From a bacterium (GTDB lineage Bacteria > Elusimicrobiota > Elusimicrobia > UBA1565), in assembly GCA_004322435.1 (NCBI GenBank), contig SCTT01000210.1, positions 1 to 32,437 on the forward strand: a stretch of 32,437 nt of DNA, written 5' to 3'. The position numbers and the translations under genes are program-made. Within the stretch, counting starts at the first letter, position 1. Every line of letters begins with the position of its first letter. Under the pieces are notes generated by a model, which saw only the letters and a program-made list of their open reading frames with translations, ran no database searches and was not told where the DNA came from. Below, in pieces: positions 4,117 to 24,008 of the stretch.

Positions 4117-4186
4117 CCTAGGACTAAAGACCGGCCGAAGGCGGGACCAAAGGACCCTCTTCCATGGCCGCCGCGGGGGCTAAAGT
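4117..4186 (+). promoter_or_regulatory. CCTAGG-type upstream element, copy 1 (upstream of amidase)
   Basis: CCTAGGACTAAAGACC... with CCAAAGGACCCTCTT at 4147-4161 and TAAAGT at 4181-4186; ATG at 4193. Confidence 0.6.
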
Positions 4187-4192
4187 TCCAAT

Positions 4193-5368
4193 ATGCTCGT
4201 CCTAGCGGCCGCCTTGGCCGTCGCCGCCCCGGCCTCGGCTCAGGTCCCTCAACGCCTCGAGAGCACGGCCCGGGGGTTTGGCCATTCCGGCCTGCTCCAG
4301 GACGTCCCGCTGCTGCCCGAGGGCGTGCCCGTGACGCCGCCGCCCCAGAACACGCCCTCGCCGGACCTCGAGCTCGAGGAGGGCCAGGTCAACTTCGAGT
4401 ACGCCGAGATGGTCGACCGCTTCGAGTCTCTGCGCCGAACCGTCGTGCGCGGCAAGAAGCGCCGCCGCCGGCGCGTCGAAGTCCCCACCGGCGTCACGGA
4501 CGCCGACCGGGTCGAAGACGGCGGCATCAAGAAGATCGTCCTTCACGCCTCGGGCGGGGCGGGGGCCTGCGACGGGTCGGTGTCGCATCTTCTGAACGCC
4601 AAGACCGCCGCACACTTCATCGTCTGCCGCGACGGGCGCGTGACGCGGATGGTGCGCATCGAGGACATCGCCAACCACGTCAAAAACGACGCCGTCGACA
4701 GAGAGTCGGTGGGCATCGAGACCGAGTCGGGGCACCCCAACTCGCCCTATTTCCGCGACTCGGACTGGTCGCCCGAGGCCTACTGGAAGATGTACGCCTC
4801 GATGGCCTGGCTCATCCGGGCCATCGCGAAGGAAGCCGGCGTCCCGCGCGACCGCTCCGCTGTCATCACCCACGAGGAGGCCGACCGCGGCATCCGCGGC
4901 GCCCACACCGACCCGGGGCCGCCCTTCGACGGCGGCTCCCAGCCGGCCTTCGACGCGCGCTTCCCGGGCCAGAACGTCTCGCCGCGCGAGTTCCTGATGC
5001 GCCTCGTCACCGACGACGCCCCGCCGCGGCTGTGGCGCCGGACCGGGCCCGCCGGCGACGGCGTCGAGGTCAAGGACGCCGAGCAGCTGGGCCTGGCCCA
5101 CATCCGCGTGTGGCGCCTAGACGCGGCCGGCAAGCCCGCGACCAAGGTCTCCGAATGGTCCGCGCCGGCAAACGGCCTGCCGCCGGTCTCCCGCCTCGTC
5201 GCCGCGCCGGCCGAGCCGGGCGCCTACCGCATCGTCGCGCGCGATCTGGTGGGCAACACGAGCGCGGCGCTCTTGCGCGTGGCCGACCCCCTGCAGCCGG
5301 CGCCGGACCCCACCCTCCCCACGGCGGACCTGAAGGTCTTCTTGTTCCAGCCGCGGCCTTCGAACTAA
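4193..5368 (+). CDS. Exported N-acetylmuramoyl-L-alanine amidase (Amidase_2/PGRP fold)
   Basis: Signal peptide MLVLAAALAVAAPASAQ; KKIVLHASGG, AHFIVCRDG, NHVKNDAVDRESVGIETE, ITHEEADRGIRGAHTDPG. Confidence 0.85.
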   Translation: MLVLAAALAVAAPASAQVPQRLESTARGFGHSGLLQDVPLLPEGVPVTPPPQNTPSPDLELEEGQVNFEYAEMVDRFESLRRTVVRGKKRRRRRVEVPTGVTDADRVEDGGIKKIVLHASGGAGACDGSVSHLLNAKTAAHFIVCRDGRVTRMVRIEDIANHVKNDAVDRESVGIETESGHPNSPYFRDSDWSPEAYWKMYASMAWLIRAIAKEAGVPRDRSAVITHEEADRGIRGAHTDPGPPFDGGSQPAFDARFPGQNVSPREFLMRLVTDDAPPRLWRRTGPAGDGVEVKDAEQLGLAHIRVWRLDAAGKPATKVSEWSAPANGLPPVSRLVAAPAEPGAYRIVARDLVGNTSAALLRVADPLQPAPDPTLPTADLKVFLFQPRPSN

Positions 5369-5388
5369 GCGCACCACTGGGCCCGCCC

Positions 5389-5442
5389 TCCGACGACAAA
5401 GGGAACTTTTTTGGGGGGTAAAACGTACGTGTTGGTATGGGG
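5389..5442. repeat. Copy B of a dispersed 54-bp intergenic element
   Basis: TCCGACGACAAAGGGAACTTTTTTGGGGGGTAAAACGTACGTGTTGGTATGGGG; 44/54 identical to 2390-2443. Confidence 0.8.
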
Positions 5443-5508
5443 AAGCTTTCCGGCGCACAGCTCCGGGGTCTGATCTTTATCATCGGCCTGAGTCACGAAA
5501 GGGCTCGA

Positions 5509-5539
5509 AATTGGAGGTCACAAATTGTGACTTCCAATT
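5509..5539. repeat. Long inverted repeat (15-bp arms, one mismatch, 1-nt centre)
   Basis: AATTGGAGGTCACAA A TTGTGACTTCCAATT. Confidence 0.8.
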
Positions 5540-5609
5540 CCTGGACAGAACCGGCCTGGCTCCTTAATATAACCCCTCCCCCGAGGTCCCACCCCCGGGT
5601 CCCGGCCGG

Positions 5610-5677
5610 CCTGGGACCATTGCCCGCCCCGGAGGGCCCCGAGGGCCCAAGGACCGTGCGGCCTTTCCCTATACAAT
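5610..5677 (+). promoter_or_regulatory. CCTAGG-type upstream element, copy 4 (divergent), with TACAAT box
   Basis: CCTGGGACCATTGCCC at -75; TACAAT at 5672-5677, 7 nt before ATG 5685. Confidence 0.45.
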
Positions 5678-5684
5678 TTGACTA

Positions 5685-8600
5685 ATGAAACTCTTAAGCG
5701 CGGCACTGTCGTCCTTCATCCTCCTTACCTCGCCCGGGCTCGGCGCCACGGAGGCTTTTGCACAGGTCCTCCGCTCGGCCCCCGTCTCGGGAACGCCCGT
5801 CGTGCCCGCCGTGCCGCTCCACATCCCCGCCGCGACGTCCTTCACCCCCACCCTCTCCGCCCCCTCTTTGGCCCTGCCCTCCGCCGCCGCGCCGCGCCTG
5901 GCCGCACCGGCCTCGCCGGCCGCCGTGAACGCCGCCCTGCCCGCGCGCGCCGCTCTCGCGGCCCCGGTGTCGGCCGCCGTCATCGCTTCGCCCGTCCGCG
6001 CCGCCGTCAACGCCGCCATTCCCGCGGCCCCCGAGGCCAAGCCCGAGACCGCGCTCGCGACCCTCTCCGCCAACGTCGAGACCCTCGGGAAGACCGCCGC
6101 CCCGTCGCAGGGCGCCTTGCTCCAGAATTTCTTCACCGGCTCGCGCTCCTGGGGCGCGGTCAACGCCGTCGTCGAGGCGACGCCCGGCTCCGAGCAGTCG
6201 GGCCGCTCCTCCCTCGAAGCCCCGGCCACCCCCGAGTCCTACGAGCCGACGGCCGTCGACTCGAAGAAGCCCTTGGCCGAGCGCAAGGCCGCCGTCGCCG
6301 CCATCGCCAAGTTCAACACCGACGCCGCGAAGGCCTCCCTCGTGCGCGTCGGCGAGGCGAACCCCCAGGGCGGCGCCGAGGACTACGAGGTGCACCGCGC
6401 CGCGTACAAAGCGCTGGCCGAGGGCTACGGCGAGGTGCGGAGCCTGCGCGCGGTGAGTCCCGAGCACAAGGCCGCCTTGGTGAAGAGCCTCAAGGACAAC
6501 AAGCCCTCCTTGGCCGTCTTCGACTACGACGACACTCTGCAGAAGTGGAAGGAGAAGGCCGCCCCCGACACGGGCGCCGCCCTCAAGGCCGCCGCCGACC
6601 AGGGCGTCTCCGTCGCCATCCTCACCGACCGCCCCGCCATCCAGGACGGGGGCTCGCCCACCGTCATCGATTCGCTCTCGGAACTCACCGCCGAGCAGAA
6701 GGCCGCCGTCACCCTCGCCGGCCGCGCGGGCGCCGAGATGGTGCAGTACGATTCCAAAGGCCGCGACGTCGTCGTCGACCGCATGCCGGGCTGGACCGAC
6801 GGCGAGCGCAAGGCCATCGACGCCGTCGCCGCCATCATCAAGGAGAAGTTCGGCACGGCCGAGCACGACGGCAAGTCCGGCAACGTGACCGAGTACGGCT
6901 TCTTCCAGCTCTTGCCCGTGCGCGCGCCCCAGTCGGTCCTAGACGAGGCGGTCAAGGTCGCGACCCTGGAGCTCGCCAACCGCGGCATGACGGGCCTCCA
7001 CATCTTCGCGCGCTACGCGAAAAGCATGGACGACCCGCCCTACCTGCAGGCCTCCAAGGTCAACAAGGTCCGCGGCATGAACATCCTGCGCGGCCAGCGC
7101 GCGGCCTACGAGCGCTTGAAGGATTTGCGCGCGCTGGGCCTGCCGGCCAAGTACGCCGCCAAGGCGCTGTCCTGGCTCAAGCGCATCCCCGAGGCGCAGA
7201 TCCCCGCCGCCAAGACCCTCGTCGTGGGCGACCAGTTCTTCGCCTCGCGCAACACGGACGCCGACATGGCCAAGGCCGCCCCCGGCGCGCTGGTCCTCTC
7301 CGTCGGCGCCAAGGCCGACCCGCGCCTCGAGAACATCTTCGTCTGGCCCTCGGAAGGCCACACGGCGACCCAGGAAATCCTCGGCGCCCTGGGAACCAAG
7401 GCCGACGACGGCGGCTTCAACAAGAAGGCGACCATCGGCCTCTTTTTAGGCCGCACGCTCTCCATCGGCTCCTTCGTCCTGACCGCCATCGCCTACCCCT
7501 ACGTGGCCGCGCCCGCCGTGGGCTGGGCCACCTTCGGGACGTTGATGGCGCTCGGGCCCTTGGCCGCCATCGCGACCGGCCCGCTCAACGGGGCCCTGGC
7601 CGACAAGTTCTCGGCGCGCACCTCGATGACCATCAACATGGTCATCCGCGCGGTGCTCGCGATGGCCCTGCCGACCTTCGCGTACTTCGGCATCATCAAC
7701 TTCTGGACGCTGCTCATCGCCTCCATCGCCAACGGCTGGGCGCTCTCGGCCACGATGACGACCGAGACCGCCTACGTGCGCCGCATCGCGGGCAAGCACC
7801 AGAACGCGGTGCAGGCCCTCATCTCGGTCAACTTCGTGGCCCTGCAGGTCATCTTGGGGCTCTTGGTCGGCATCGGCTCCTACATCGACGCCTGGGCGCC
7901 CACCACGCCCTTCCTCATCTCGGCCATCGCGCACGCCGCCATCGCGGCGCCCTTGATGTGGTTCACGATGCCCTCGGACAAGCCCGCGGGCAACGCCGCC
8001 GCGAAGACCCAGCAGAAGGCTCCCTTCTCGGAGCGCGCCGGGACCTTCGCCAAGAAGTACTGGAAGGAGGCCCTCATCACCGCCGCCTCCATCGGCTCCT
8101 ACGCGTTCTTCCACTCGGCGCTCCCCATCGCCGGGGCGCTCTTCTATTGGGTCCTCAACACGGACACCGTGAAGGCCCTGCGCGCCGGCGAGTTCCGCGA
8201 GGTCGCCCCGCGCGAGAAGGAAATCGAGGCGGCCTTGAAGGACAAGGCCGGCGAGGACACGCCCGAGACCGCCGCCCTCAAGAAGGAAGCGAAGACCTGG
8301 AAGGGACGCCAGTTCAAGACCGTGCTCTACTCGGCCGGCCAGGCCGTGATGACCTACCCGTTCCAGAACTTCGCGCTGCCGCTCATCGCGGTGCTCCTCG
8401 TCGGCACGGCGGGCAAGGGCCTGCTCTTGGGCAAGCTCCTGGGCGCCATGTACTTCGGCAACCTCATCGCCAACTCCTCGCAGGCGGCCCTCCCCGAGAT
8501 CCGCCTGCCCCTCGTCGGCCGCGTCCCCGGCCAGCGCATCGTGCAGGGCCTCGTGCTCGGCATGGCCGCGGCCTGGGTCTACACCGGCCTCGTCCCCGGC

Positions 8601-9089
8601 AGCATCCTCGCCGCGGCGGCGGCCGTCGCCATCGCCTCGGGCCTCATGTGGCTGTCGGGGCGCATCACCAACAAGGGCTGGATCAAGGCGCTGGGCTTTG
8701 GCCTCGCGGGCATCGCCCTCCCGGCGGCGGTCTGGGCGTTCCCGGCGCTCATCCCGTTCATGGACGTGCAGACGGCGCTCTTCTTGGCGATGCTCAACTA
8801 CGGCCTCTTCGTGGGGCCCTCGTCGGTGTCGCTGGGCATCTACCAGCAGGGCAACACCAACAAGGCGCACCTGGGCAAGGTGTTCGGGACGGGCTCCTCG
8901 TTCTTTAACACCTTCAACTCCATCGGCTACGGGCTCCTGGCCCTGGCCGCGAGCGCGTTCACGCCGGCCTTCCCGGCGATGTTCGTGCCGATGCTGGGCC
9001 TCTACGCCTTGGGCGGGTACCTGTTCTTCCGGGCCCCCAAGAACCTGCCCGGTCTTCCTGAAAACTCGTTTAAAAAGAACGAGAAATAG
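5685..9089 (+). CDS. Signal peptide + Pro/Ala-rich linker + HAD-like domain + MFS-like transporter fusion (1134 aa)
   Basis: MKLLSAALSSFILLTSPGLGATEAFAQVLRSAPVSGTP...; HAD motifs LAVFDYDDTL, ILTDRP, LVVGDQFFASRNTDADMA; then many TM segments (FLGRTLSIGSFVLTAIAYPYV...GPLNGALADKFSARTSMTINMVIRAVLAM). Confidence 0.8.
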   Translation: MKLLSAALSSFILLTSPGLGATEAFAQVLRSAPVSGTPVVPAVPLHIPAATSFTPTLSAPSLALPSAAAPRLAAPASPAAVNAALPARAALAAPVSAAVIASPVRAAVNAAIPAAPEAKPETALATLSANVETLGKTAAPSQGALLQNFFTGSRSWGAVNAVVEATPGSEQSGRSSLEAPATPESYEPTAVDSKKPLAERKAAVAAIAKFNTDAAKASLVRVGEANPQGGAEDYEVHRAAYKALAEGYGEVRSLRAVSPEHKAALVKSLKDNKPSLAVFDYDDTLQKWKEKAAPDTGAALKAAADQGVSVAILTDRPAIQDGGSPTVIDSLSELTAEQKAAVTLAGRAGAEMVQYDSKGRDVVVDRMPGWTDGERKAIDAVAAIIKEKFGTAEHDGKSGNVTEYGFFQLLPVRAPQSVLDEAVKVATLELANRGMTGLHIFARYAKSMDDPPYLQASKVNKVRGMNILRGQRAAYERLKDLRALGLPAKYAAKALSWLKRIPEAQIPAAKTLVVGDQFFASRNTDADMAKAAPGALVLSVGAKADPRLENIFVWPSEGHTATQEILGALGTKADDGGFNKKATIGLFLGRTLSIGSFVLTAIAYPYVAAPAVGWATFGTLMALGPLAAIATGPLNGALADKFSARTSMTINMVIRAVLAMALPTFAYFGIINFWTLLIASIANGWALSATMTTETAYVRRIAGKHQNAVQALISVNFVALQVILGLLVGIGSYIDAWAPTTPFLISAIAHAAIAAPLMWFTMPSDKPAGNAAAKTQQKAPFSERAGTFAKKYWKEALITAASIGSYAFFHSALPIAGALFYWVLNTDTVKALRAGEFREVAPREKEIEAALKDKAGEDTPETAALKKEAKTWKGRQFKTVLYSAGQAVMTYPFQNFALPLIAVLLVGTAGKGLLLGKLLGAMYFGNLIANSSQAALPEIRLPLVGRVPGQRIVQGLVLGMAAAWVYTGLVPGSILAAAAAVAIASGLMWLSGRITNKGWIKALGFGLAGIALPAAVWAFPALIPFMDVQTALFLAMLNYGLFVGPSSVSLGIYQQGNTNKAHLGKVFGTGSSFFNTFNSIGYGLLALAASAFTPAFPAMFVPMLGLYALGGYLFFRAPKNLPGLPENSFKKNEK

Positions 9090-9090
9090 G

Positions 9091-9165
9091 TCTAGGTCCT
9101 TAGCCGTCCCCCAGGGGCCGACCGGCCCAGGCGGGGCCGCGGCTTGGGCCTCATCCTTCCTTAAG
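9091..9165 (+). promoter_or_regulatory. CCTAGG-type upstream element, copy 3
   Basis: TCTAGGTCCTTAGCC at -75 relative to ATG 9166. Confidence 0.45.
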
Positions 9166-11445
9166 ATGAGGCTGACCCGCATCCTGCTCGCGGCCCTGGC
9201 GCTCTTGAGCGCGCCGGGACAGGGCGCCTACGCCCAGTTCGCCAAGGTCGCCCCCGTCCGGACCGTCCCCGCCGCCCCTGCGGCGCCGCTCCAGCTCCGC
9301 CTTCCGCTGAATTCGGCCCCGACGGGCCTCGCCGTACCCGGCCTGGCCGCGCCGTCCCTCACGACGCCTTCTCTGCCGACCCCCAGCGTCTCGGCCAAGG
9401 CCGTCGCCGTCGCGGCCGCCGCGGCGCCCGCCCAGGCCGCCGCTTTCCCCCTCTCCCGCGTTCGGGAGAGGGATGGGGTGAGGGCATCGGTCGGGCTTCC
9501 CTCACCCTACCCTCTCCCGCAAGGGCGGGAGAGGGAAAATGGAAAAGAGCAAGCCACGGCAAAGGCGACGCTGGAGAAAGGAGCCGCTTCGCTGAATGTG
9601 CGCGGCATCGTGCCCGCCGCCGCCCTCGACGCCTTCTTCGAAGGGGCGAAGGCCCGCGCCGAGAATTCGAATGCGGTCGCCCCTGAAGGCCAGCCGAGCC
9701 GGACCGCGCGGCCGGGCCTGGCGCCCGCCGCCGAGCCCGCCCCGGCTCCGGCCCCGACCGTCGCGGCACCCCAAACCGCCGAAGACAAGCCGAACGTCAA
9801 GGCGCTGGCCGGGCTCTTCACCTCGCGCACCGTCTCCATCGCGAGCTTCATCCTCACCTCCATCGCCTACCCCTTCCTCGCCGTGCCGGTCGTCGGCTGG
9901 GCGGGCTTCGGCGCGCTGATGGCCTTCGGGCCGCTGGCCGCCGTCGCCACGGGCCCTTTAAACGGCCTCATCGCCCAGCGCCTGTCGGCGCGCAAGGCCA
10001 TGGCCATCAACGCCGGCATCCGCGCCGCTCTTTCGCTGGTGCTGCCCGTAGCGGCCGGCTTCGGCTTCTTGAACTTCGGGACCTTGCTCGTCGCTTCGGT
10101 CGCCAACGGCTGGATCATGAGCTCGGTGATGACGGTCGAGGGCGCGTACCTCAAGAAGCTCGCCGGCGAGAAGGCGCTCGGCACGGTCAACGGCCTGGCC
10201 TGGATGAACTACCTGGCCATCCAGGTGGTGCTCGGCCTCATCGTGGGGGTCGGCTCCATCGTCGACAAGTGGGACCCCTCGGCGGCCTTCTACATCTCGG
10301 CGGCGGTGCACGCCCTCCTGGTCCTCCCCATCCTCTGGTTCACGATGCCGGACCTCGCCCCGCCGGGCCAGCGCCGCATCCCCTCCCACGTGGGCCTGTT
10401 GGCGCAGGCCGTCGCCTTCTTCAAGTCCAACGCCCTGCCGCTCGGCGCCGCGGCGCTCGGCGTCGGCGCCTACCTAGCCTTCTCGACCACCTTGCCCCTC
10501 ATCGCCGCCATCCTCTACTGGGTGACGCGCTCCAAGTCCTTCAAGGACGTGTGGAGCGGCGCCGCCCGCGCCGACTCGCCCGACGAGGCCGTGCTGCGGG
10601 AGAAGGTCGCGGCCGCGGCGGACGGCCCGGAGAAGGCGCGCTACGAGTCCGAGCTGGCCCTGCGCGCCAAGCGCCTGCGCACCGCGATGCTCTACCTGTC
10701 GCTCGCCGCCCTCTTCCTCTTCCCGCTCCAGTACTTCGTCCTGCCCGCCGCCGCCACGGCCCTGGCGGGCGCGGCCGGGGCGGCCGGGAAGGGCCTCATC
10801 CTGGGCCGCCTCTTGGGCGCCCTCTTCCTCGGCAACCTCGTCTCGGTGGCCGCCCGCGCGAAGCTCCCGGTCCTCAAGCTGTTCGGCCGCTCCTTTAAAG
10901 GAGAGCGCCTCGTGCAGGGGGCCGTCATGGCGCTGGCCGCGGGCTGGTCGCTCGCAGCTCTCGCGCCGGGCAGCCTCGTCGTGGCGGCCGCCGTCGCCGC
11001 CGCCGCGCTCGGCCTCATGGCTCTGGCCGCCCGCCTCACGGACACCGGCTGGGTGAAGCTCATGGGCCCCGGCTTCGCCGCGGTGGCCCTGCCCTACCTC
11101 GTCTGGACCGCCGGCCTCTTCCCGGGCTTCGGCCCCGCGGCGGCCCTGACCGTGAGCCTCCTCGTCGCCGGCATGGTCTACGGCCCGGCCTTCGTGGCCT
11201 TGAACACCACCTTCCAGCGCTGGGTCTCGCCGGACAAGATGGGCCCGTCCATCGGCGCGCAGAGCTCCTTCTTCAACGGGGCGCTGTCCTTGGGCTACGG
11301 CGTCATCTCGCTGGCGGCCTCCTTCGCCCCTCTGCCGGGCCTCTTGGGCTGGATGACGCTCGCCTACGGCGTCCTCGGCATCCTCTTCTGGCTGGCGCCG
11401 CGCTTTTTGCCCGGCCTGCCCGCGACGATGTTCCACAAAAAGTAA
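9166..11445 (+). CDS. Signal peptide + Pro/Ala-rich linker + MFS-like transporter (paralogue of 5685 gene, no HAD domain)
   Basis: MRLTRILLAALALLSAPGQGAYAQFAKVAPVRTVPAAPAAPL...; membrane half aligns with the preceding gene (LFTSRTVSIASFILTSIAYPFLAVPVVGWAGFGALMAFGPLAAVATGPLNG); both end in LPGLP..F.K. Confidence 0.8.
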   Translation: MRLTRILLAALALLSAPGQGAYAQFAKVAPVRTVPAAPAAPLQLRLPLNSAPTGLAVPGLAAPSLTTPSLPTPSVSAKAVAVAAAAAPAQAAAFPLSRVRERDGVRASVGLPSPYPLPQGRERENGKEQATAKATLEKGAASLNVRGIVPAAALDAFFEGAKARAENSNAVAPEGQPSRTARPGLAPAAEPAPAPAPTVAAPQTAEDKPNVKALAGLFTSRTVSIASFILTSIAYPFLAVPVVGWAGFGALMAFGPLAAVATGPLNGLIAQRLSARKAMAINAGIRAALSLVLPVAAGFGFLNFGTLLVASVANGWIMSSVMTVEGAYLKKLAGEKALGTVNGLAWMNYLAIQVVLGLIVGVGSIVDKWDPSAAFYISAAVHALLVLPILWFTMPDLAPPGQRRIPSHVGLLAQAVAFFKSNALPLGAAALGVGAYLAFSTTLPLIAAILYWVTRSKSFKDVWSGAARADSPDEAVLREKVAAAADGPEKARYESELALRAKRLRTAMLYLSLAALFLFPLQYFVLPAAATALAGAAGAAGKGLILGRLLGALFLGNLVSVAARAKLPVLKLFGRSFKGERLVQGAVMALAAGWSLAALAPGSLVVAAAVAAAALGLMALAARLTDTGWVKLMGPGFAAVALPYLVWTAGLFPGFGPAAALTVSLLVAGMVYGPAFVALNTTFQRWVSPDKMGPSIGAQSSFFNGALSLGYGVISLAASFAPLPGLLGWMTLAYGVLGILFWLAPRFLPGLPATMFHKK
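9449..9535. repeat. In-frame 87-bp palindromic REP/MITE-like element
   Basis: Hairpins CCCTCTCCCG/CGGGAGAGGG (9449-9472) and CCCTCTCCCGC/GCGGGAGAGGG (9510-9535), plus GGGTGAGGG/CCCTCACCC (9476-9484/9499-9507). Confidence 0.85.
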
Positions 11446-11455
11446 GATTGGGCCC

Positions 11456-11821
11456 ATGGCCCTCATCTTGGTCGCCGACGACACCCCCGAGGTCGCCGAA
11501 CTCGTCCAGGACATCCTCGAGGCGCGCGGCCACCAGGTCGTGATGGCCGCCGACGGCGTCCAGATGATCGAGCGGGCCAAGACCGTGAACCCTCAGCTCA
11601 TCATCTCGGACATCATGATGCCGGGCGCCTACGGCTCCTCGGCCTACAAGGCCCTGCAGGACGACCCCCACACCAAGGGCATCCCGGTGCTGTTCTTGAC
11701 CGGCGTGAACCACGAGGCCGCCGCGAAAGTCGTCCCGCAGGCGGCCAACGTGCGCCTGCTCTTCAAGCCCCTCGACGTCGCGCATCTGCTGGCCGCGGTG
11801 GCGGAGCTTCTGGGGAAGTAA
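11456..11821 (+). CDS. CheY-like single-domain response regulator
   Basis: MALILVADDTPEVAELVQDILEARGHQV...LIISDIMMPG...PVLFLTG...LLFKPLD; receiver acidic pair, Asp, Thr and Lys present. Confidence 0.9.
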   Translation: MALILVADDTPEVAELVQDILEARGHQVVMAADGVQMIERAKTVNPQLIISDIMMPGAYGSSAYKALQDDPHTKGIPVLFLTGVNHEAAAKVVPQAANVRLLFKPLDVAHLLAAVAELLGK

Positions 11822-12189
11822 TGGCCCTCATCCTCGTCGCCGAAGACGCCGCCGAGCTCGCCGAGATGCTCAAGCACGTCCTCGAGTCGCGCGGCCATCA
11901 GGTCGCGGTGGCCGCCGACGGCGTCGAGATGATCGAGAAGGCCAAGAACCTGAGGCCCAAGCTCATCATCTCGGACATCATGATGCCCGGCGCCTACGGC
12001 TCGGCGGCCTTCAAGTCCCTGCAGGACGACCCCTACACGAAGGGCACTCCCGTCATCTTCCTCACCGCCGTCAGCCCCGAACAGGCCGTGCGGGTCGTCG
12101 GCGAGGGCCCGGGCATCCTCATCCTCCACAAGCCGGTGGACATCATGGCCTTGATCGCGGCCGTGAACCAGATGCTGCCGGCTGCCTAG
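11821..12189 (+). CDS. CheY-like single-domain response regulator (tandem paralogue)
   Basis: MALILVAEDAAELAEMLKHVLESRGHQV...LIISDIMMPGAYGSAAFKSLQDDP...ILHKPVD; start overlaps the previous stop (TAATG). Confidence 0.9.
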   Translation: MALILVAEDAAELAEMLKHVLESRGHQVAVAADGVEMIEKAKNLRPKLIISDIMMPGAYGSAAFKSLQDDPYTKGTPVIFLTAVSPEQAVRVVGEGPGILILHKPVDIMALIAAVNQMLPAA

Positions 12190-12191
12190 CC

Positions 12192-12220
12192 TTGACTTGC
12201 CCGAACACCGGGGCTACACT
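12192..12220 (+). promoter_or_regulatory. Sigma70-type promoter TTGACT-17 bp-TACACT
   Basis: TTGACT 12192-12197, TACACT 12215-12220. Confidence 0.65.
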
Positions 12221-12271
12221 AGCGTCGCACCCCGCCGAGTAGGCGTCCGCAGTCCGCGGCCGCCGTCGTTT

Positions 12272-13747
12272 TTGCTTTACAACACCCTCCGCAGAGCCCT
12301 CCTCGGGGCTTTGGCGGCGCTCGCCTGCTCGGGAGCCGCCGAGGCCGCGCCGTCGTTCACCGCGGAAGAGACGGTCTTCTTCAGCCGGACGTCGTCTATG
12401 TCGGTGCAGTCGGTGGTGACCGTCCCGGGCGGGTTCCGGATGTACGTGACGAGCGGCCCGTACCGCGTCCTCTCGGCCACCTGCACGGACCAGGTCGCCT
12501 GGGGCCTCGAGAGCGGCATACGCCTGACGACCTCGGTCGTCGCCAACGACGTCTCCTCCATCACCTACCTCTCGGTCGTGGCCTCGACGGCGGTCGGCGG
12601 CGGCTGGCGGATGTACTACGTGGGCATCGACGCTGGGGGCCTCTACCGGGTCCTGAGCGCGACCTCCACCGACGGCCTGGCCTGGGGCAAGGAGCAGGGG
12701 ACCCGGCTCCAAAACAACGGGGGGCAGGGATTTATCGGCAGCCTGTCGGGCTTCTCGGTGTCGAACACCGAACGCCGCCTCTACTACGTGGCCGACCGCG
12801 ACGGCTTGAACAACGCCTCCCGCTACGCGGTCTTCGTCGCGACCTCGGGGGACGGCGGCCTCAACTTCGGCCCGGGCACGCTGGCCCTCTCGGCCAACGC
12901 GTACGCGGTCTCGGCGACGACGATGACGAGCGGCAAGACCCGCATCTACTACACCTCCCCCTTGACCGGCTCGACGACGGCCAGCCAGGTCCTCTCGGCG
13001 ACGGCCTCTGACGGGCTCTCGTTCACCTCTGAGAGCGACGTGCGCCTGTCGACGACGGCCTCCGTCTCGGGCTTCCGCGGCCTGGTCGTCCTGCGCTCCA
13101 CCGACAGCTTCCGCTGGCGGATGTACACCGACTACATCATCGGCGGCACCACCGAGACCTTCATCTCGCACGCGCTGACGAGGACCCCGGTCGTCGAGAG
13201 CTTCTCGCCCGCCGCCGTCGACAAGGGCCGCACCGGCGTCCCGTACACGCTGACCGGCGAGATCTTCTCGCCGACCCCCACGGTGTCCTTCGTGCTGGGG
13301 GCCTCCACCTACAACGCGACGACCGTCGTGCGCGCCGACGACACGTCGCTCTCGGGCGTGTTCGACACGCTCAACCGCTACCAGGGCGTCTACAACGTCG
13401 CCGTCGTCAACGCCGACGGCCGGCCGGGGTTCCTGTCGAACGCCCTCGAGATCCGGCTCCCCCCCGGCAGCGTCACCATGCTCGACAACCTCTTCCGCCC
13501 GACCAAAGGCGGGACGACCAAGGCCACCGTCGAGCTCTTCGAGGCCGGGGAGGTCACCGCCCGCCTCTACACCGTCGACGGGAACCTCGTCGCGACGCTG
13601 TTCCAGGGGACGATGCCCGCGGGCCAGACCCAGTTCACCTGGAACGGCCGCACGCCGGCCGGCAGCGTGGTGGCCAGCGGGGTCTATCTGCTCAACGTCG
13701 TGGGTCCCAACCTCAACACCACCGAGCGCGTGGTGGTCGTCAAGTGA
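12272..13747 (+). CDS. Exported beta-propeller-like protein with IPT/TIG-like and C-terminal FlgD-Ig-like domains
   Basis: TTG start at 12272 lies downstream of the promoter and gives LYNTLRRALLGALAALACSGAAEAAPSF; repeats (RMYVTSGPYRVLSAT / RMYYVGIDAGGLYRVLSAT); C-term VTARLYTVDGNLVATLFQGTMPAGQTQFTWNGRTPAGSVVASGVYLLNVVGP. Confidence 0.7.
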   Translation: MLYNTLRRALLGALAALACSGAAEAAPSFTAEETVFFSRTSSMSVQSVVTVPGGFRMYVTSGPYRVLSATCTDQVAWGLESGIRLTTSVVANDVSSITYLSVVASTAVGGGWRMYYVGIDAGGLYRVLSATSTDGLAWGKEQGTRLQNNGGQGFIGSLSGFSVSNTERRLYYVADRDGLNNASRYAVFVATSGDGGLNFGPGTLALSANAYAVSATTMTSGKTRIYYTSPLTGSTTASQVLSATASDGLSFTSESDVRLSTTASVSGFRGLVVLRSTDSFRWRMYTDYIIGGTTETFISHALTRTPVVESFSPAAVDKGRTGVPYTLTGEIFSPTPTVSFVLGASTYNATTVVRADDTSLSGVFDTLNRYQGVYNVAVVNADGRPGFLSNALEIRLPPGSVTMLDNLFRPTKGGTTKATVELFEAGEVTARLYTVDGNLVATLFQGTMPAGQTQFTWNGRTPAGSVVASGVYLLNVVGPNLNTTERVVVVK

Positions 13748-14685
13748 GGGCCGCCCTCCTCCTCGCCGCCGTCCTCTTCGCCGCGCCCCGCGCCCATGCC
13801 GAGGCCGGGCGCAGCGCCGCGGCTTTCCTCAAGCGCGCGCTGGGCGCGCGCGCCGCGGCGATGGGCGGCGCCGGGACGGCCCTCGTCGACCCCGGCCCCG
13901 GCGCGCCCCAGTTCAACCCCGGCGGCCTGGCGCGCGTCGCGCGCCCGTCTTTGACGAGCGCCTACCTCAACGGCTACGGCGGCGTCACGCACGGCTACGC
14001 GGCCTACGCGCACCCCCTGCCCTACGGCGTCCTCGGCACGGGCCTGCTCTACTTCAACGCCGGCGACATAGGCCTCAACCTCTCGGACGGGACGAAGCGC
14101 ACCGTGACCTCCGAGGAGGACCTGGCCTGGACCTTGAGCTACGCCGTCCCGCTGCCTTTCGGGGTCAGCGTCGGCGGAAGCTACCGCTTCCTGCGCATGG
14201 AGCTGGCCGAGACCGCCTCCGCCGTCTCCCACCAGGGCGACGCGGGGGCGCTCTGGCGCACCCCGGTCAAGGGGCTCTCGCTCGGGGCCGCCCTCCAATA
14301 TTGGGGCCCCGACATCGTCTTCGAGGAGGCCGGCGACCCGCCGCCCAAGACCTTCCGCTACGGCGCCGCGCTGCGCCTGCCCGACATCGACGCGGCCAAG
14401 GTGGACCCCACGGTCGACTTGGCCGCCTTCGACATGACGGTGGCCGGCGACGTGGTGCAGACCGTCTTCGAGTCCCCCTATCAGCGCCTCGGGGTCGAGC
14501 TGGGCCTGACGCCGTCCCTCATGAGCCGCATCGCCCTGCGCTTCGGCTGGGTCTTCAACCGCTTCGCCGAAGGCTTCACCCTCGGAGCGGGCTTCAAGAC
14601 GGGGCGCTATACCTTCGACTTCGGTCACGGCGACACCAAGACGATGAAGGGGCTGACCAGCGCCTCGTTCACGGTGGAGTTTTGA
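13744..14685 (+). CDS. PorV/PorQ (UPF0164)-like outer-membrane beta-barrel protein
   Basis: GTG start overlapping previous stop; signal peptide; AAAFLKRALGARAAAMGGAGTALVDPGPGAPQFNPGGLARV is typical of the family; C-terminal FTVEF. Confidence 0.75.
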   Translation: MRAALLLAAVLFAAPRAHAEAGRSAAAFLKRALGARAAAMGGAGTALVDPGPGAPQFNPGGLARVARPSLTSAYLNGYGGVTHGYAAYAHPLPYGVLGTGLLYFNAGDIGLNLSDGTKRTVTSEEDLAWTLSYAVPLPFGVSVGGSYRFLRMELAETASAVSHQGDAGALWRTPVKGLSLGAALQYWGPDIVFEEAGDPPPKTFRYGAALRLPDIDAAKVDPTVDLAAFDMTVAGDVVQTVFESPYQRLGVELGLTPSLMSRIALRFGWVFNRFAEGFTLGAGFKTGRYTFDFGHGDTKTMKGLTSASFTVEF

Positions 14686-14791
14686 TGGGCCTGCCCATTG
14701 GTGCCGGACTTTAGTTATTCGGTCTGCTCCAACCCTCCCTCGTAAGACGTTCCTCCCGCCTCCAAACCCCCATCTCTAAAGCCTGAGCATG

Positions 14792-14860
14792 CCTAGGTCC
14801 TTTATCCTTTAAAACAGGGGCCAAAGGACCCTCTTTGATAGGAGGCCCAAGAGCAAAAAT
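14792..14860 (+). promoter_or_regulatory. CCTAGG-type upstream element, copy 2 (upstream of amidase)
   Basis: CCTAGGTCCTTTATCC with CCAAAGGACCCTCTT at 14821-14835; ATG at 14867. Confidence 0.6.
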
Positions 14861-14866
14861 CTGGGT

Positions 14867-15958
14867 ATGAAGCGCTTGCTTCCCCTGCTGGCCCTCTCGG
14901 CCGCCGCCGCGCTGGGCTGCTCGAAGTGCGACGACGCCGCCCCGCAGGCTTCCGCCAAGGGCTTCAGCGCCGAGTCCGGCCCCGCCGGCGAGCCGACCGC
15001 CTCCCTCGAGCCCCCGCCGCCGGGCGTCCTGGTGGCCGCCAAAGGCCCCGCCGGGTCCTCTTCCTTCGCCGGCGAAGTCTCCGACGACGGCCGCGCCGTC
15101 TTCGACGGCGACCGCCTGCGCGACGGCCTGGGTTCCGGCGGCGCCGTGCGCGGCCAGTTCTCCGACAATTCCAGGAAGTGGGCCTCGCTGCGCGGCCAGC
15201 TCGCGGAGAGCCGCCAGGGCCGCGCCAGCTACGCGGCCGTCCCCCCGCCCCGCGGGACCACCGGCAACGGCGTGCGCCCCGACGCGAGCGTCCCGGACGT
15301 TCCGGCCGGCAAGGTCTTCAACCTCACCGAATACCAGCGCTTCGAGCAGGCGATGTACACCACCGTCTACCCGGTGCTGACCCGGCTGGGCTGGAACGCC
15401 CGCTCCCGCCGCGGCGGCGCGACCGGCATGGACCCCTACCGACTGACCGTCCACCACACGATGGGCCACCAGACCTTCGGCGAGGCCGAGACGGCCGCCG
15501 CCGTGCGCGGCATCCAAGCCTTCCACCAGGGCCCGGAGCGCGGCTGGGCCGACATCGGCTACCACTTCCTCATCGACGGCGCGGGCCGCGTCGCCGAAGG
15601 CCGCCCGGCCAACGTCCTGGGCGCCCACGCCGCCGAGGCCAACAGCGGCAACCTCGGCATCTCGCTGATGGGCAACTTCGACGTGGCCCAGCCCTCGGAC
15701 TCCCAGATGGACTCCTTGGAGCGCCTGGCCGCCTATCTGGCCCTGCGCTACGACATCCCGGTGATGAAGACGGGCTACCTGGAAGGGCACAACCACCACG
15801 GCGACACGACCTGCCCCGGCCGCTACCTGAACGCCCGTCTGGCCGAGATCCGCTCGCGCGTCGTGCAGGAAGAGGCGAAGATCCGCGACCGCGACGCCGG
15901 GGGCGGCAAGCCCAACTACGCGGCCTTCACCCCGCTGGTCGTCACTCGGCCGGCCTGA
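14867..15958 (+). CDS. Lipoprotein N-acetylmuramoyl-L-alanine amidase (PGRP fold)
   Basis: Lipobox ALGC; YRLTVHHTMGHQTF, GWADIGYHFLIDGAGRVAEGRPANVLGAHAAEANSGNLGISLMGNF, LEGHNHHGDTTCPGRYL. Confidence 0.9.
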   Translation: MKRLLPLLALSAAAALGCSKCDDAAPQASAKGFSAESGPAGEPTASLEPPPPGVLVAAKGPAGSSSFAGEVSDDGRAVFDGDRLRDGLGSGGAVRGQFSDNSRKWASLRGQLAESRQGRASYAAVPPPRGTTGNGVRPDASVPDVPAGKVFNLTEYQRFEQAMYTTVYPVLTRLGWNARSRRGGATGMDPYRLTVHHTMGHQTFGEAETAAAVRGIQAFHQGPERGWADIGYHFLIDGAGRVAEGRPANVLGAHAAEANSGNLGISLMGNFDVAQPSDSQMDSLERLAAYLALRYDIPVMKTGYLEGHNHHGDTTCPGRYLNARLAEIRSRVVQEEAKIRDRDAGGGKPNYAAFTPLVVTRPA

Positions 15959-18910: not shown

Positions 18911-18954
18911 ACCATCCACATGGTCAGTATAACCATGCGCCCTGCTTTTGTCAA
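18911..18954 (-). promoter_or_regulatory. TetR gene promoter (TTGACA-17 bp-TATACT) with operator
   Basis: TTGACA = revcomp 18949-18954; TATACT = revcomp 18926-18931; inverted repeat ACCATCCACATGGT at 18911-18924 over the expected start site. Confidence 0.75.
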
Positions 18955-20432
18955 GCCGTGATTTTGGAGGAGAGCCAGCCGGCCAGGCGGAACAGCCAGT
19001 TGGCCTTGGGCGCCTTCGCGGGCTTGGCGTCCATGTCCTTGAGGAACTCGAGCGAGAGGCGGTAGGCGTTGGCGTAGTGCGGCAGCGAGAACGACTTGAT
19101 GGTGTCGTTGGCCGAGTGGATGATGTCCCAGATGACCTCGAGCGAGGCGCCGAAGAACATGAGGCCCAGCACCCCGGCGCGGCGGAAGCTCGTGTGGTCC
19201 GAGTCGCCGCCGTCGAGATAAAGCTCCTTTAAGTCCCGGCCGGTGCGGCGGGCGGTCTCCATCGCGCGCGCGAGGAGGACCTTGTCCGAGCCGTTCTTCC
19301 AGGAGAACGTCCCGTCGACGCCGAGCGTGTCCAGGTTCAGCATGTAGTCGATTTTCTTGAGCTGCTCGCGGGTCAGGCTCTCCACGTACTTGTCGGAGCC
19401 GACCAGGCCCTCCTCCTCGCGGGAGAAGGCGATGAAGACGTAGGTCGCGTCGGTGTCGAGCTCGCGCAGCGCCTGGTAGAGGTTCACGACCATCGTGGCC
19501 CCGGTCCAGTTGTCGATGGTGCCCGCGCCCTCGTGCACCTTGTCGTGGTGGCCGCCGACCACGACCACGCGGTCGGTGCGGCCCTTCTTGACGACGTAGA
19601 TGTTGTGCGTGCCGCGGCCGGTGTCCTGGGTCTTGATCTCTTCGGGCTTGGCGCCGGCGGCCTTGAAGAGCTCGGCCACCACGCGCTCGCGCTCGGGGTT
19701 CGTCAGCGGAGAGAGGGCTACGGTCTTGTAGAGGTCGTCGTCGGAGGGGACGCCCTCGACCCGCGAGCGGCCCTGGCCGTTCTGGGCGACCGCGAGACGC
19801 TGGCCCGGGGCCAGGCGCCCGGCGGCGAAGAGGCGCTCGGCGCGGCCGACGAAGGCCTCGGGGCCCTCGATGCCGCGCGCGCCGTCGAAGAGGCCGGCGA
19901 GGCGGGACGGCAGGCCCTGCGGCAAGGTCCCGGCCAGGTCCTTGGCGGCGGCCTTGAGCGCGGGCGCGGCCCCGGCCTTCTCGGCCAGAGACTCGATGCG
20001 GGCGGCCAACGCGCCGCCCTGCTCGCCCTGCTCGCGCAGCGCGGCGACGAGGGCGGTCCGGGCTGCCTCGTCGCCCAGCGCGCGCGCGACGACCGCGGCG
20101 CCCTGGGCGGAGGTGACGAAGGACTCGTTGCCGGGGGCGAGCGGCGCCGCCAGCGCGGCGCGGGTCAGGTAGGCGGCTGCGGCTTGGGGGTTGGCCGGAC
20201 GCGCCTCGGGGAGGGCAACGTTCGGGAGGGTGGGCGAGAGGCGCGCCTCGGCCTGGGAGAGGTGGCGGTCGATGGCGCCCAACAGGAAGCTCGGCAGGGC
20301 GGCGGGGCCGACGGGGGCGCCCGGGTTCCCCGGCGTCTGGACGGGGGTCGCGCGATAGACCTGGGAGAAGGCGGGGAGGGGCTGGGCCGCGGCGAGGATG
20401 ACGGCCAGGAGGCCGCAGAGGGGGTTCTTCAT
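18951..20432 (-). CDS. Exported M28-family metallopeptidase with Pro/Ala-rich leader module
   Basis: MKNPLCGLLAVILAAAQPLPAFSQVYRATPVQTPGNP...; VVVVGGHHDKVHEGAGTIDNWTGATMVVNLYQAL, AFSREEEGLVGSDKYV, LDGGDSDHTSFRRAGV. Confidence 0.85.
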   Translation of the reverse strand: MKNPLCGLLAVILAAAQPLPAFSQVYRATPVQTPGNPGAPVGPAALPSFLLGAIDRHLSQAEARLSPTLPNVALPEARPANPQAAAAYLTRAALAAPLAPGNESFVTSAQGAAVVARALGDEAARTALVAALREQGEQGGALAARIESLAEKAGAAPALKAAAKDLAGTLPQGLPSRLAGLFDGARGIEGPEAFVGRAERLFAAGRLAPGQRLAVAQNGQGRSRVEGVPSDDDLYKTVALSPLTNPERERVVAELFKAAGAKPEEIKTQDTGRGTHNIYVVKKGRTDRVVVVGGHHDKVHEGAGTIDNWTGATMVVNLYQALRELDTDATYVFIAFSREEEGLVGSDKYVESLTREQLKKIDYMLNLDTLGVDGTFSWKNGSDKVLLARAMETARRTGRDLKELYLDGGDSDHTSFRRAGVLGLMFFGASLEVIWDIIHSANDTIKSFSLPHYANAYRLSLEFLKDMDAKPAKAPKANWLFRLAGWLSSKITA

Positions 20433-20526
20433 AGGGTTATGCTACCCCCTCCCCCCTTTCGCCCTGAGAGCCGAAAGGCCTATATAAGGAACGGCATACG
20501 ACCCCAGAGGACCTGGGTCCGGCGCC

Positions 20527-21519
20527 TTATATCGCTCCCATGCGGTTGGGCGGCCAGTAGATGACCCAGGCCTTCCCTTTGACGTACTTCTCGGCCACCG
20601 GGCCCCAGAAGCGGGAGTCGCAGGAGCGGTCGCGGTTGTCGCCCATCATGAAGTAGGCGCCGGCCGGCACCTTGACCGGTCCGAAGTGGTCCTTCATCGT
20701 GTCGCCGAGCTTCAAATCGAGCTGCCCGCCCTGCCAGAGCTCCTGGTACAGCGCGGGCGGCGGGGCCAAAGCCGGCGGGTCGCCGCGGTAGGAGTCGAGG
20801 AACTGGGTGAAGGGCTCCTTCCCGAGGACCTCCCCGTTGCGCACCAGCACGCCGCCGCGGACCTCGAGGGTGTCGCCGCCCACGGCCACGACGCGCTTGA
20901 TGAAGTCCTTGCCGAACTGGGAGCCGCCGCAGTGCTGGGCCTCGGGGTCCTCGGTGGGGAAGCGGAAGACGATGATGTCGCCGGCCTTCACGGGCTTCAA
21001 GCGCAGCACGCGCTTGTCGGTGAACGGGATGCGCACGCCGTAGACGAACTTGTTGACGAAGAGGTGGTCGCCGATGCGCAGGGTGCTCTCCATCGAGCCG
21101 GAGGGGATCTTGAAGGCCTGCACGAGGAAATACATGAGGAGCGAGGCCAAGATGACCGCGGAGTAGACGGTCTCCGCCCACTCGAGGTCCTCGTTGAGGA
21201 AGTAGCGCCGCTTCTCGGCGTCGGACCCGGTGGACCAGGCGCGCCAGAGGCCGAAGGCCGCCAAAAGCGCGCCGCCGGCCAGGCCCGCCCCGACCTCGCG
21301 CAGCGACAAAGAGCCCGCCGAGGCGCCTACGAACTTGAGGCGGCTCTCCACCGAGAGCACGGCGATGAGCATCACCGAAAAGCCGGCCAGCCCCAAGAAG
21401 AGCGCGTGCCACAGCGAGGCGGGGAGCTTCTCGTCGAGCTTGCCCGAGGCCGTCCAGCGCTTGGTGAGCCAGGCGTAGCCGAACATCGCCACGCCGATCC
21501 AGAAAAGCCGTGCTTCCAT
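20527..21519 (-). CDS. lepB: Signal peptidase I
   Basis: IPSGSMESTLRIGDHLFVNKFVYG, FIKRVVAVGGD, FMMGDNRDRSCDSRFWGPV. Confidence 0.92.
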   Translation of the reverse strand: MEARLFWIGVAMFGYAWLTKRWTASGKLDEKLPASLWHALFLGLAGFSVMLIAVLSVESRLKFVGASAGSLSLREVGAGLAGGALLAAFGLWRAWSTGSDAEKRRYFLNEDLEWAETVYSAVILASLLMYFLVQAFKIPSGSMESTLRIGDHLFVNKFVYGVRIPFTDKRVLRLKPVKAGDIIVFRFPTEDPEAQHCGGSQFGKDFIKRVVAVGGDTLEVRGGVLVRNGEVLGKEPFTQFLDSYRGDPPALAPPPALYQELWQGGQLDLKLGDTMKDHFGPVKVPAGAYFMMGDNRDRSCDSRFWGPVAEKYVKGKAWVIYWPPNRMGAI

Positions 21520-21538: not shown

Positions 21539-22213
21539 TCACCGGATGAAGCCTATCCGCGACGGCGGCCAGTAGACGAAGGCGGCCTTCCCCACCGCGT
21601 AGCGGTCCCAGACGGGCCCCCAGAAGCGGCTGTCGCAGGAGGCGTCGCGGTTGTCGCCCAGCGCGAACACGGCGCCCGGCGGGACCGTCACCGGGCCGAA
21701 GTGGTCGCGCACCCCGTCGCCGACCTCCATGTCGAGGCGCCGGGCCTCCCAGGACGCCTGGTATTCGGCGGCGGGGAGCGTCACCGGGGACTTCGCGCAG
21801 GGTCCCGGCGCGGTGTGCTTCGCGTACGGCTCGGCCCCCCCGCGGGCGCCGTTGAGGTAGAGCGCCCCCTCCCGGAGCTCGACGACGTCGCCGGGCACGC
21901 CGACGACGCGCTTGAGCCACAGGCGCCCGGCCTGGGTCCCCGTGCAGTGCACCTCGGCGCGGTCGTCGGTCGGAAAATAAAAGACCAGGAGGTCCCCCCC
22001 CTGCGGGGCGCGGCGCGGCCAGCGCGCGCGGGTGCCGGGGAAGCGCAGCCCGTAGGCGGCCGGCAGGACCAGCACCCGGTCGCCGACCTTGAGCGTGTCC
22101 TCCATCGAGGCCGTGGGGATGCGGAAAGGGCGTACGACGAAGGAGACGCAGGCTCCGGCCGCCAGGAAGGCGGCCCCGAAGGCCTGCGCCCAGCGGAGGG
22201 CTTCCCTGTTCAA
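21539..22213 (-). CDS. lepB: Signal peptidase I (second copy)
   Basis: IPTASMEDTLKVGDRVLVLPAAYG, WLKRVVGVPGD, FALGDNRDASCDSRFWGPV; TTG start at 22213 overlapping the lepA stop preferred over 22345. Confidence 0.88.
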   Translation of the reverse strand: MNREALRWAQAFGAAFLAAGACVSFVVRPFRIPTASMEDTLKVGDRVLVLPAAYGLRFPGTRARWPRRAPQGGDLLVFYFPTDDRAEVHCTGTQAGRLWLKRVVGVPGDVVELREGALYLNGARGGAEPYAKHTAPGPCAKSPVTLPAAEYQASWEARRLDMEVGDGVRDHFGPVTVPPGAVFALGDNRDASCDSRFWGPVWDRYAVGKAAFVYWPPSRIGFIR

Positions 22214-24008
22214 CGCTCGATCTTCAGCACGGCCAGGAAGGCCTCCTGGGGGATGTCCACCGAGCCCAGCTGCTTGGCCTTGCGCTTGCCTTCCTTCTGC
22301 TTCGAGAGGAGCTTGCGCTTGCGCGTGATGTCGCCGCCGTAGCACTTGGCGATGACGTCCTTGCGGATGGCGGGGATGGTCTCGCGGGAGATGATGCGCC
22401 CGCGCACCGAGGCCTGGATGGCGATCTCGAACTGCTGGCGCGGGATGAGCTCCTTGAGCTTCTCGCAGAGCTGGCGCCCCATCGTCTGGGCCTTGTCCTT
22501 GTGGACGATCTGGCAGAGGGCGTCCACGGGGTCCTGGTGGACGAGGATCTCGAGCTTCACCAGATCCGACTCCCGCTCGGAGGCCTCCTGGTAGTCGAAG
22601 GAGGCGTAGCCCTTCGACACGGACTTGAGCTTGTCGTAGAAGTCCATCACGATCTCGGCCAGAGGCATCTCGTAGCGGATGATCATGCGGTCGGCCGAGA
22701 GGTACTCGATGGCCTTGTGGGAGCCGCGGCGGTCCTTGAGGAGGTTCAAGACGGGCTCCTGGAAGCCCACCGGCAAGACGATGGTGACGTCCACGTAGGG
22801 CTCGCGGATGGAGGCGATGTCGCCGTAGTGCGGGAACTTGGCGGGGTTGTCCATCCGGAAGTACTCGGTCTCGTTGACCTTGCGGAGCATGAAGGAGACG
22901 TTCGGGCTCGTGACGATGAGGTCGAGGTCGAACTCGCGCTCGAGGCGCTCCTTGACGATGTCCATGTGCAAGAGGCCCAAAAACCCCAGGCGGAAGCCGA
23001 AGCCCAGGGCCTCCGAGGTGTCGACCTGATATTGGAACGAGGAGTCCTCGAGGTGCAGCTTCTCCAAGGCGGCCTTGAGCTCCGGGTATTCGGCCGGGTT
23101 GATGGGGAAGACGCCCGCGAACACGACCGGCTTGGCCTCTTTGTAGCCGGGCAGCGGCTCCTGGAGCGGCCGCGCGGCCTCCATCACGGTGTCGCCGACG
23201 CGGATCTGGTGGATGTCCTTGATGCCGCAGACGAGGTAGCCGACCTCGCCGGCCGTGAGCTTCTGCGCCTGCACCTGCTTGGGCGTGAGGTAGCCGACCT
23301 CCTCGACGACGGTGTCCATGCCGGTCGAGTGGAAGCGCAGCTTCTTGCCGCGCTCCATCGTGCCGTCGACCATCCGCACGTAGAGGATGACGCCGCGGTA
23401 GGCGTCGTAGAGCGAGTCGAAGATGAGCGCGGCCAAGGGCTTTTCCGGGTCGCCGGTCGGCGCGGGGAAGTCCCGGACGATGGCGGCCAGGACGTCGTCG
23501 ACGCCGATGCCGGCCTTGGCCGAGGCCATGATGGGGTTCTCGATGATGGAGAGCACGTCGAAGATCTGCTCCTCGACGGCGGCCACGTCGGCCGAGGGCA
23601 GGTCCACCTTGTTGATGACGGGGATGATCTTGAGGCCGACCTTCTTGGCCAGATCGCAGTTGGCCAAAGTCTGCGCCTCGACGCCCTGCGTCGCGTCGAC
23701 GACCAAGAGCGCCCCCTCGCAGGCGGCCAGCGCGCGAGAGACCTCGTAGGTGAAGTCCACGTGGCCGGGCGTATCGATGAGGTTGAGGATGTACTCCTGA
23801 CCGTCGGCGGCCGTGTGGTTCATGCGCACGGCCTTGGCCTTGATGGTGATGCCCCGCTCGCGCTCGAGCTCCATCGAGTCCATCATCTGCGCTTCCATCT
23901 TGCGCAGCTCGATCGTGCCGGTCTTCTCGAGCAGCCGGTCGGCGAGCGTGGACTTGCCGTGGTCGATGTGGGCGATGATGGAGAAGTTGCGGATGCGCGC
24001 GACGTCCG

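Follow-up and report, generated by a model that had tools for sequence, protein, structure and literature searches.

Upstream sites at exported-protein genes

The window analysed here is a stretch of 32,437 nt (contig SCTT01000210.1 of assembly GCA_004322435.1, positions 1 to 32,437) from a fragmented metagenome-assembled genome (MAG) of the little-studied class Elusimicrobia (order UBA1565). It carries genes for two amidases, two MFS-like proteins and an M28 peptidase. All five (5/5) have, weak sites included, a CCTAGG-related site in both of two registers upstream of the start codon (Table 1).

An initial annotation, made from the sequence alone, had pointed to CCTAGG-type boxes in front of four exported-protein genes. 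The boxes were found at 4117 (CCTAGGACT), 5610 (CCTGGGACC), 9091 (TCTAGGTCC) and 14792 (CCTAGGTCC), respectively 76, 75, 75 and 75 nt from the ATG, and signal-peptide-like N-termini were present on 4/4 downstream proteins. Judged by their sequence, the boxes are real and make up the left half of a dyad with imperfect symmetry. The annotation had seen the upstream register and this half, and had missed the downstream register and the other half. The box at 5610, regarded as divergent, gained support from the word TGGGNC, which showed identical register peaks. The M28 gene, offered as a looser relative, belongs to the target set; besides its CCCAGGTCC box it carries TATAGGCCTTTCGGCT at -52. CTAGG was not over-represented in the window alone (19 observed, 33 expected), so the case depends on the position of the element and not on its number.

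Table 1 Dyad sites, -10 boxes and target genes in the window. Distances of sites refer to the first base and the predicted transcription start.
Feature	Position	Strand	Remark
Upstream-register dyad CCTAGGACTAAAGACC	4117..4132	+	-76; predicted start = A of ATG 4193
Downstream-register dyad GCGGGACCAAAGGACC	4141..4156	+	-52
-10 box TAAAGT	4181..4186	+	12 nt before ATG (leaderless)
Target: exported N-acetylmuramoyl-L-alanine amidase (Amidase_2)	4193..5368	+	
Upstream-register dyad CCTGGGACCATTGCCC	5610..5625	+	-74
Weak second dyad GAGGGCCCCGAGGGCC	5632..5647	+	-52 register
-10 box TACAAT	5672..5677	+	13 nt before ATG
Target: signal peptide, long N-terminal part and MFS_1 domain	5685..9089	+	
Upstream-register site TCTAGGTCCTTAGCCG	9091..9106	+	-75 to ATG
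Downstream-register dyad CAGGGGCCGACCGGCC	9112..9127	+	-52
Target: signal peptide and MFS-like domain	9166..11445	+	paralogue of 5685..9089 gene
Upstream-register dyad CCTAGGTCCTTTATCC	14792..14807	+	-75
Downstream-register dyad CAGGGGCCAAAGGACC	14815..14830	+	-52
Weak -10 box AAAAAT	14855..14860	+	12 nt before ATG; orthologue L167 has CAAAAT there
Target: amidase lipoprotein (Amidase_2)	14867..15958	+	
Weak upstream-register site TCTGGGGTCGTATGCC of M28 gene	20493..20508	-	-76; CCCAGGTCC just upstream at 20517
Downstream-register site TATAGGCCTTTCGGCT of M28 gene	20469..20484	-	-52
-10 box TAGCAT	20439..20444	-	12 nt before ATG 20432
Target: exported M28 peptidase (Pfam M28)	18951..20432	-	

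The right part of the dyad at 4141..4156 lies within a 15-mer, CCAAAGGACCCTCTT, common to the promoter of the 14867 gene only. The two MFS-like genes are tandem paralogues in a DNA repeat of 72% identity, both under the same putative operator. Each joins a signal peptide and a long N-terminal part rich in Ala and Pro to an MFS-like domain, an unusual fusion.

Position of the element and leaderless promoters

The own-genome sample consisted of the window and 140 further stretches, 1.11 Mb of 4.04 Mb in 578 contigs, including 75 kb of N. Genes were called with a simple home-made caller based on codon usage. A de novo motif search of upstream regions by expectation maximization returned G+C-rich codon-like patterns, probably missed coding sequence, and positional word scans were therefore used instead.

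In a blind scan of 5-, 6- and 7-mers against the distance to the start, the -10 words TAGAAT, TATCCT and TACAAT at 11-30 nt ranked first among 6-mers; CCTAGG/CTAGG, located at 61-89 nt, came among the next words. CCTAGG was concentrated about 75 nt before start codons. It was among the most position-specific upstream words of all 6-mers, with 17/36 occurrences at 61-80 nt before starts (P = 1.6e-7, uncorrected for the words and windows tried). It was also about nine-fold denser between genes (38 in 105 kb) than in coding DNA (36 in 932 kb), and most other NCTAGN hexamers had a weaker intergenic excess.

TAnnnT had 163 matches in the bin 11-20 nt before the start, compared to 3 to 35 in other bins. 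Among promoters picked for a good -10 box, its first base was mostly 12 or 13 nt before the ATG; in 61 of 97 selected promoters it was at 11-13 nt, and in 36 at exactly 12 nt. TTG was enriched 23 nt upstream of the -10 box in the selected promoters, corresponding to a -35 element with a 17-bp spacer. Transcription start sites (TSSs) were inferred from the -10 boxes, and at most targets a TAnnnT box 12-13 nt before the ATG makes the ATG itself the predicted start, as in leaderless sigma-70-type promoters. Promoters of this kind (TTG-17-TAnnnT, -10 box 12-13 nt before the ATG) are apparently common in this genome.

Counted from the predicted TSS, 19/41 sites matching NNTAGGNC fell at 51-54 and 73-76 nt (8 of 78 positions expected). 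The independent word TGGGNC (NNTGGGNC), not used in finding the peaks, had 14/30 occurrences at identical positions. The reverse orientation was without clear peaks, indicating a preference for one orientation. A position weight matrix (PWM) built from both registers reads CCTRGGnCYWWnGnCC. Its best symmetry axis, at offset 9.5, gives the imperfect dyad GGnC-N4-GnCC. The registers have their first bases at -75 and -52 and their centres at about -65.5 and -42.5, 23-24 bp apart, and several promoters carry both sites with this spacing.

Sixteen PWM matches stood at exactly -52, and 19 at -74 to -76. The dyad was present at 34/127 strong promoters. As a control, 30 matches in the 1.11 Mb of the own genome stood against 0 in 1.03 Mb of other phyla. 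As 20 stretches (L067-L086) had been picked for pattern matches, favouring long contigs, the counts were repeated on sequentially numbered contigs only, leaving aside the window and motif-chosen contigs; 10/27 sites were then in register (P = 2e-4).

Target genes

Signal peptides were called by a home-made heuristic other than SignalP, namely an uncharged hydrophobic 11-mer within the first 30 residues. A signal-peptide-like start was found in 25/31 genes with NNTAGGNC at -40 to -80 and in 94/337 others (P = 1e-8), in a set that includes L067-L086 and the window. With an in-register PWM site, the count was 37/44 in the own-genome sample, in a set that includes loci fetched by motif patterns. 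On sequential contigs only, it was 6/8 versus 53/206 (P = 0.006), so the effect on position and export holds, on fewer sites.

Pfam matches among the targets included amidases, an SLT transglycosylase, M1, M3, M16 and M28 peptidases, endonuclease I, a PLD protein, TPR and pentapeptide proteins, among others. For many targets Pfam gave no match. From this list the targets look like secreted hydrolases and envelope proteins. ATG-AAR starts are frequent among signal-peptide genes. In the own genome, proteins beginning with MK were found at 11/33 promoters with an in-register motif versus 20/156 other strong leaderless promoters.

Two further repeats lie near these genes in the window. A tandem pair at 11456-11821 and 11821-12189 encodes about 121 amino acids each and is 78% identical in DNA. 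On the minus strand, at 20527-21519 and 21539-22345, a signal peptidase S26 gene adjoins an open reading frame (ORF) with which it has a 152-nt repeat in common (76%). This ORF is possibly a second copy, and the pair is near exported-protein genes.

Conservation across the class

Among named relatives, those nearest to the 14867 amidase come from Elusimicrobia MAGs. In three relatives (L167, L168, L169) the orthologous amidase promoters retain the -75/-76 site as well as the -52 site. In L168 a leadered start may lie downstream, and the sites are in register to its -10 box. Over five amidase promoters, dyad columns were 72% identical, versus 33% for other columns of the stretch.

Plain 16-mer pattern counts across the phylum were noisy, and the same-family genome G089 was not above the control. 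A composite pattern (TRGGNC-N4-GNCC, 23-25 nt, TANNNT, 5-7 nt, ATG), run over 199 genomes of this phylum, was clearer. The 17 genomes of the order gave 178 matches against 3 for the reversed control, the other 78 genomes of the class 301 against 20, and the 104 genomes of the phylum outside the class 2 against 6. For 15 genomes of the order, the pattern with the -52 gap matched 163 times; lengthening this gap by 5 bp left 6 matches, and the -75 gap gave 129. These counts and the shifted-gap control make the element a trait of the class that is tied to promoter geometry. The class-wide strings are TAGGYC-N4-GRCC, again with N4 between half-sites. A+T-rich members keep the element in the form TAGGYCTTTTGRCC, to which the class-wide form is close; CTTG often comes next, placing TTG at -35. 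The composite matches suggest that leaderless promoters are common across the class as well. In the rest of the class, 146/301 matches (~49%) continued as ATG-AAR, a share for which these genomes offer no matched baseline.

Proposed regulation

A dyad fixed in phase just upstream of the -35 element, and another roughly two turns beyond it, fits a dimeric activator that touches the polymerase. We consider it likely that the dyad is the operator of a homodimeric activator, set in two registers at leaderless promoters, of a secretome regulon that spans the class Elusimicrobia. A homodimeric DNA-binding protein would bind CCTRGGnCYWWnGnCC at one or both registers. At about -42.5 it would abut the -35 hexamer, in a class II kind of contact, and at about -65.5 a class I kind of contact would be made. 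Once bound, it most likely activates sigma-70-type promoters whose transcript begins at the ATG. This proposal builds on the site, its registers and orientation, the -10/ATG geometry, the export bias in the own genome and the class-wide conservation of the geometry, as read from sequence; the protein, its dimerisation, activation and the TSSs are predictions. Site position, signal-peptide bias and class-wide conservation also back a regulator common to these genes and a regulon of exported proteins, as the initial annotation had suggested.

The sequence does not fix the sign of regulation, and a repressor or a silencing or architectural protein could bind the same operator. A dyad beside the -35 element could hinder the polymerase too, and two phased sites could build a repression complex. 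However, the preferred registers go no further than just upstream of the -35 element, whereas the usual places of repressors are over the -10 box or the start, and a strict register to the -10 box in a single orientation is typical of activators touching the polymerase. We regard repression as unlikely and clearly prefer activation. The element might alternatively be intrinsic to the polymerase, contacted by the C-terminal domain of the alpha subunit like an UP element, or by a lineage-specific sigma factor, with no separate regulator. It does occur at many promoters throughout the class and abuts the -35 element. However, UP elements are A+T-rich, and in place of A+T-rich tracts at -38 to -59 we found a G+C-rich core, GGnC-N4-GnCC, with near-invariant GG/CC. 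Together with two registers 23 bp apart and the presence at only 34 of the 127 strong promoters, this makes such an element very improbable.

The initial annotation had also considered an RNA leader, that is, a structured 5' untranslated region common to envelope genes, acting as a riboswitch or bound by a protein. The fixed distance to the ATG would suit it, and transcribed dyads could fold into stems. However, -10 boxes predicted from the sequence stand between element and ATG at a fixed distance, which places the element in DNA upstream of the promoter, probably untranscribed. A search of the window against Rfam gave no family at the gathering score and four sub-threshold matches, none at the leaders. 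We therefore reject this reading as very improbable. Least credible of all is a compositional or repeat artefact, arising from coding avoidance of CTAG, dispersed palindromes or uptake sequences. CTAG is indeed scarcer in coding DNA, and some CCTAGG occurrences (L073 15501, L147 5550) lie inside a different palindrome, TTAGCCTAGGCTAA, which looks like a separate repeat family; L147 also contains GAGGATTCC words. Against an artefact stand the position, the orientation, the spacing to the -10 box, the independent word TGGGNC, the reversed-pattern control and the retention of the element in A+T-rich class members. The shifted-gap control led us to reject it.

Several points weigh against an activator of a secretome regulon. 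No binding protein for the dyad was identified, and the TSSs derive from -10 boxes. Promoters with a -52 site should have lost the -35 triplet, and this was seen only as a trend (2/16 versus 24/65, P = 0.077). Some targets are non-exported, e.g. a carboxyltransferase. Among genes with a strong leaderless promoter, the excess of signal peptides was smaller (16/18 versus 53/87, P = 0.018), so part of the export bias belongs to that promoter class generally. The bias itself was seen by sequence in the own genome; elsewhere in the class it is a prediction, the figure at hand being the ATG-AAR share with no matched baseline.

A more tentative idea, which may well prove wrong, is that the whole class uses one dedicated, so far undescribed transcription factor outside canonical CRP/FNR as a general switch of the exported proteome, through the two-register operator on leaderless promoters. 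The dyad operator would give a sequence-based definition of the secretome regulon and predict transcription starts, and a class-wide operator would make a new global regulator searchable in the cultured Elusimicrobium minutum.

Comparison with known systems

In a literature search limited to open-licence papers, no paper on Elusimicrobia promoters or on the dyad motif was found. The FNR site is TTGAT-N4-ATCAA, and CRP sites are centred at -41.5 (class II) or -61.5 (class I). The Elusimicrobia dyad resembles these sites in its half-sites of about 5 bp with N4 between them, in a register near -42 and in its place beside the -35 element. It differs in the second register, with centres at about -42.5 and -65.5 (predicted TSS), compared to -41.5, and -61.5 plus 10.5-bp steps, for CRP/FNR. 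To our knowledge, the half-site AGGnC matches no CRP/FNR consensus.

Motif-bearing f3 genomes such as G022, G040 and G055, with 8-10 composite matches each, had no match to PF00027 and at most weak matches to PF13545. As several motif-rich genomes are without a detectable cyclic nucleotide (cNMP)-binding domain, the element was not assigned to CRP/FNR, and a canonical protein of this family is unlikely as its regulator. One target promoter (L048) is followed by a cNMP-binding ORF, which had no match to the Crp helix-turn-helix (HTH) domain. In f3 genomes (e.g. G038, G040, G049, G055, G059), ORFs of 206-223 amino acids match the Crp HTH weakly, in every case over profile positions 18-66, and no cNMP domain was detected in them; they are possible regulator candidates.

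PhoB boxes are tandem direct repeats that replace the -35 element. Here too, tandem upstream sites stand about two helical turns apart, but they are inverted repeats at 23 bp, and a -35 element is present in many class members.

Leaderless mRNAs with the -10 box adjoining the ORF are described for Deinococcus-Thermus (PMC12340547). In the Elusimicrobia promoters, too, the -10 box adjoins the start codon and the mRNA is predicted to be leaderless; they add a fixed upstream operator and belong to another phylum. Sigma-54 steers the bacterial exterior, and Elusimicrobium minutum is among the diderms without it (PMC3162934). Although the promoters described here have sigma-70-like -35 and -10 elements, the likeness to sigma-54 control is that one transcription device would serve envelope and exterior genes.

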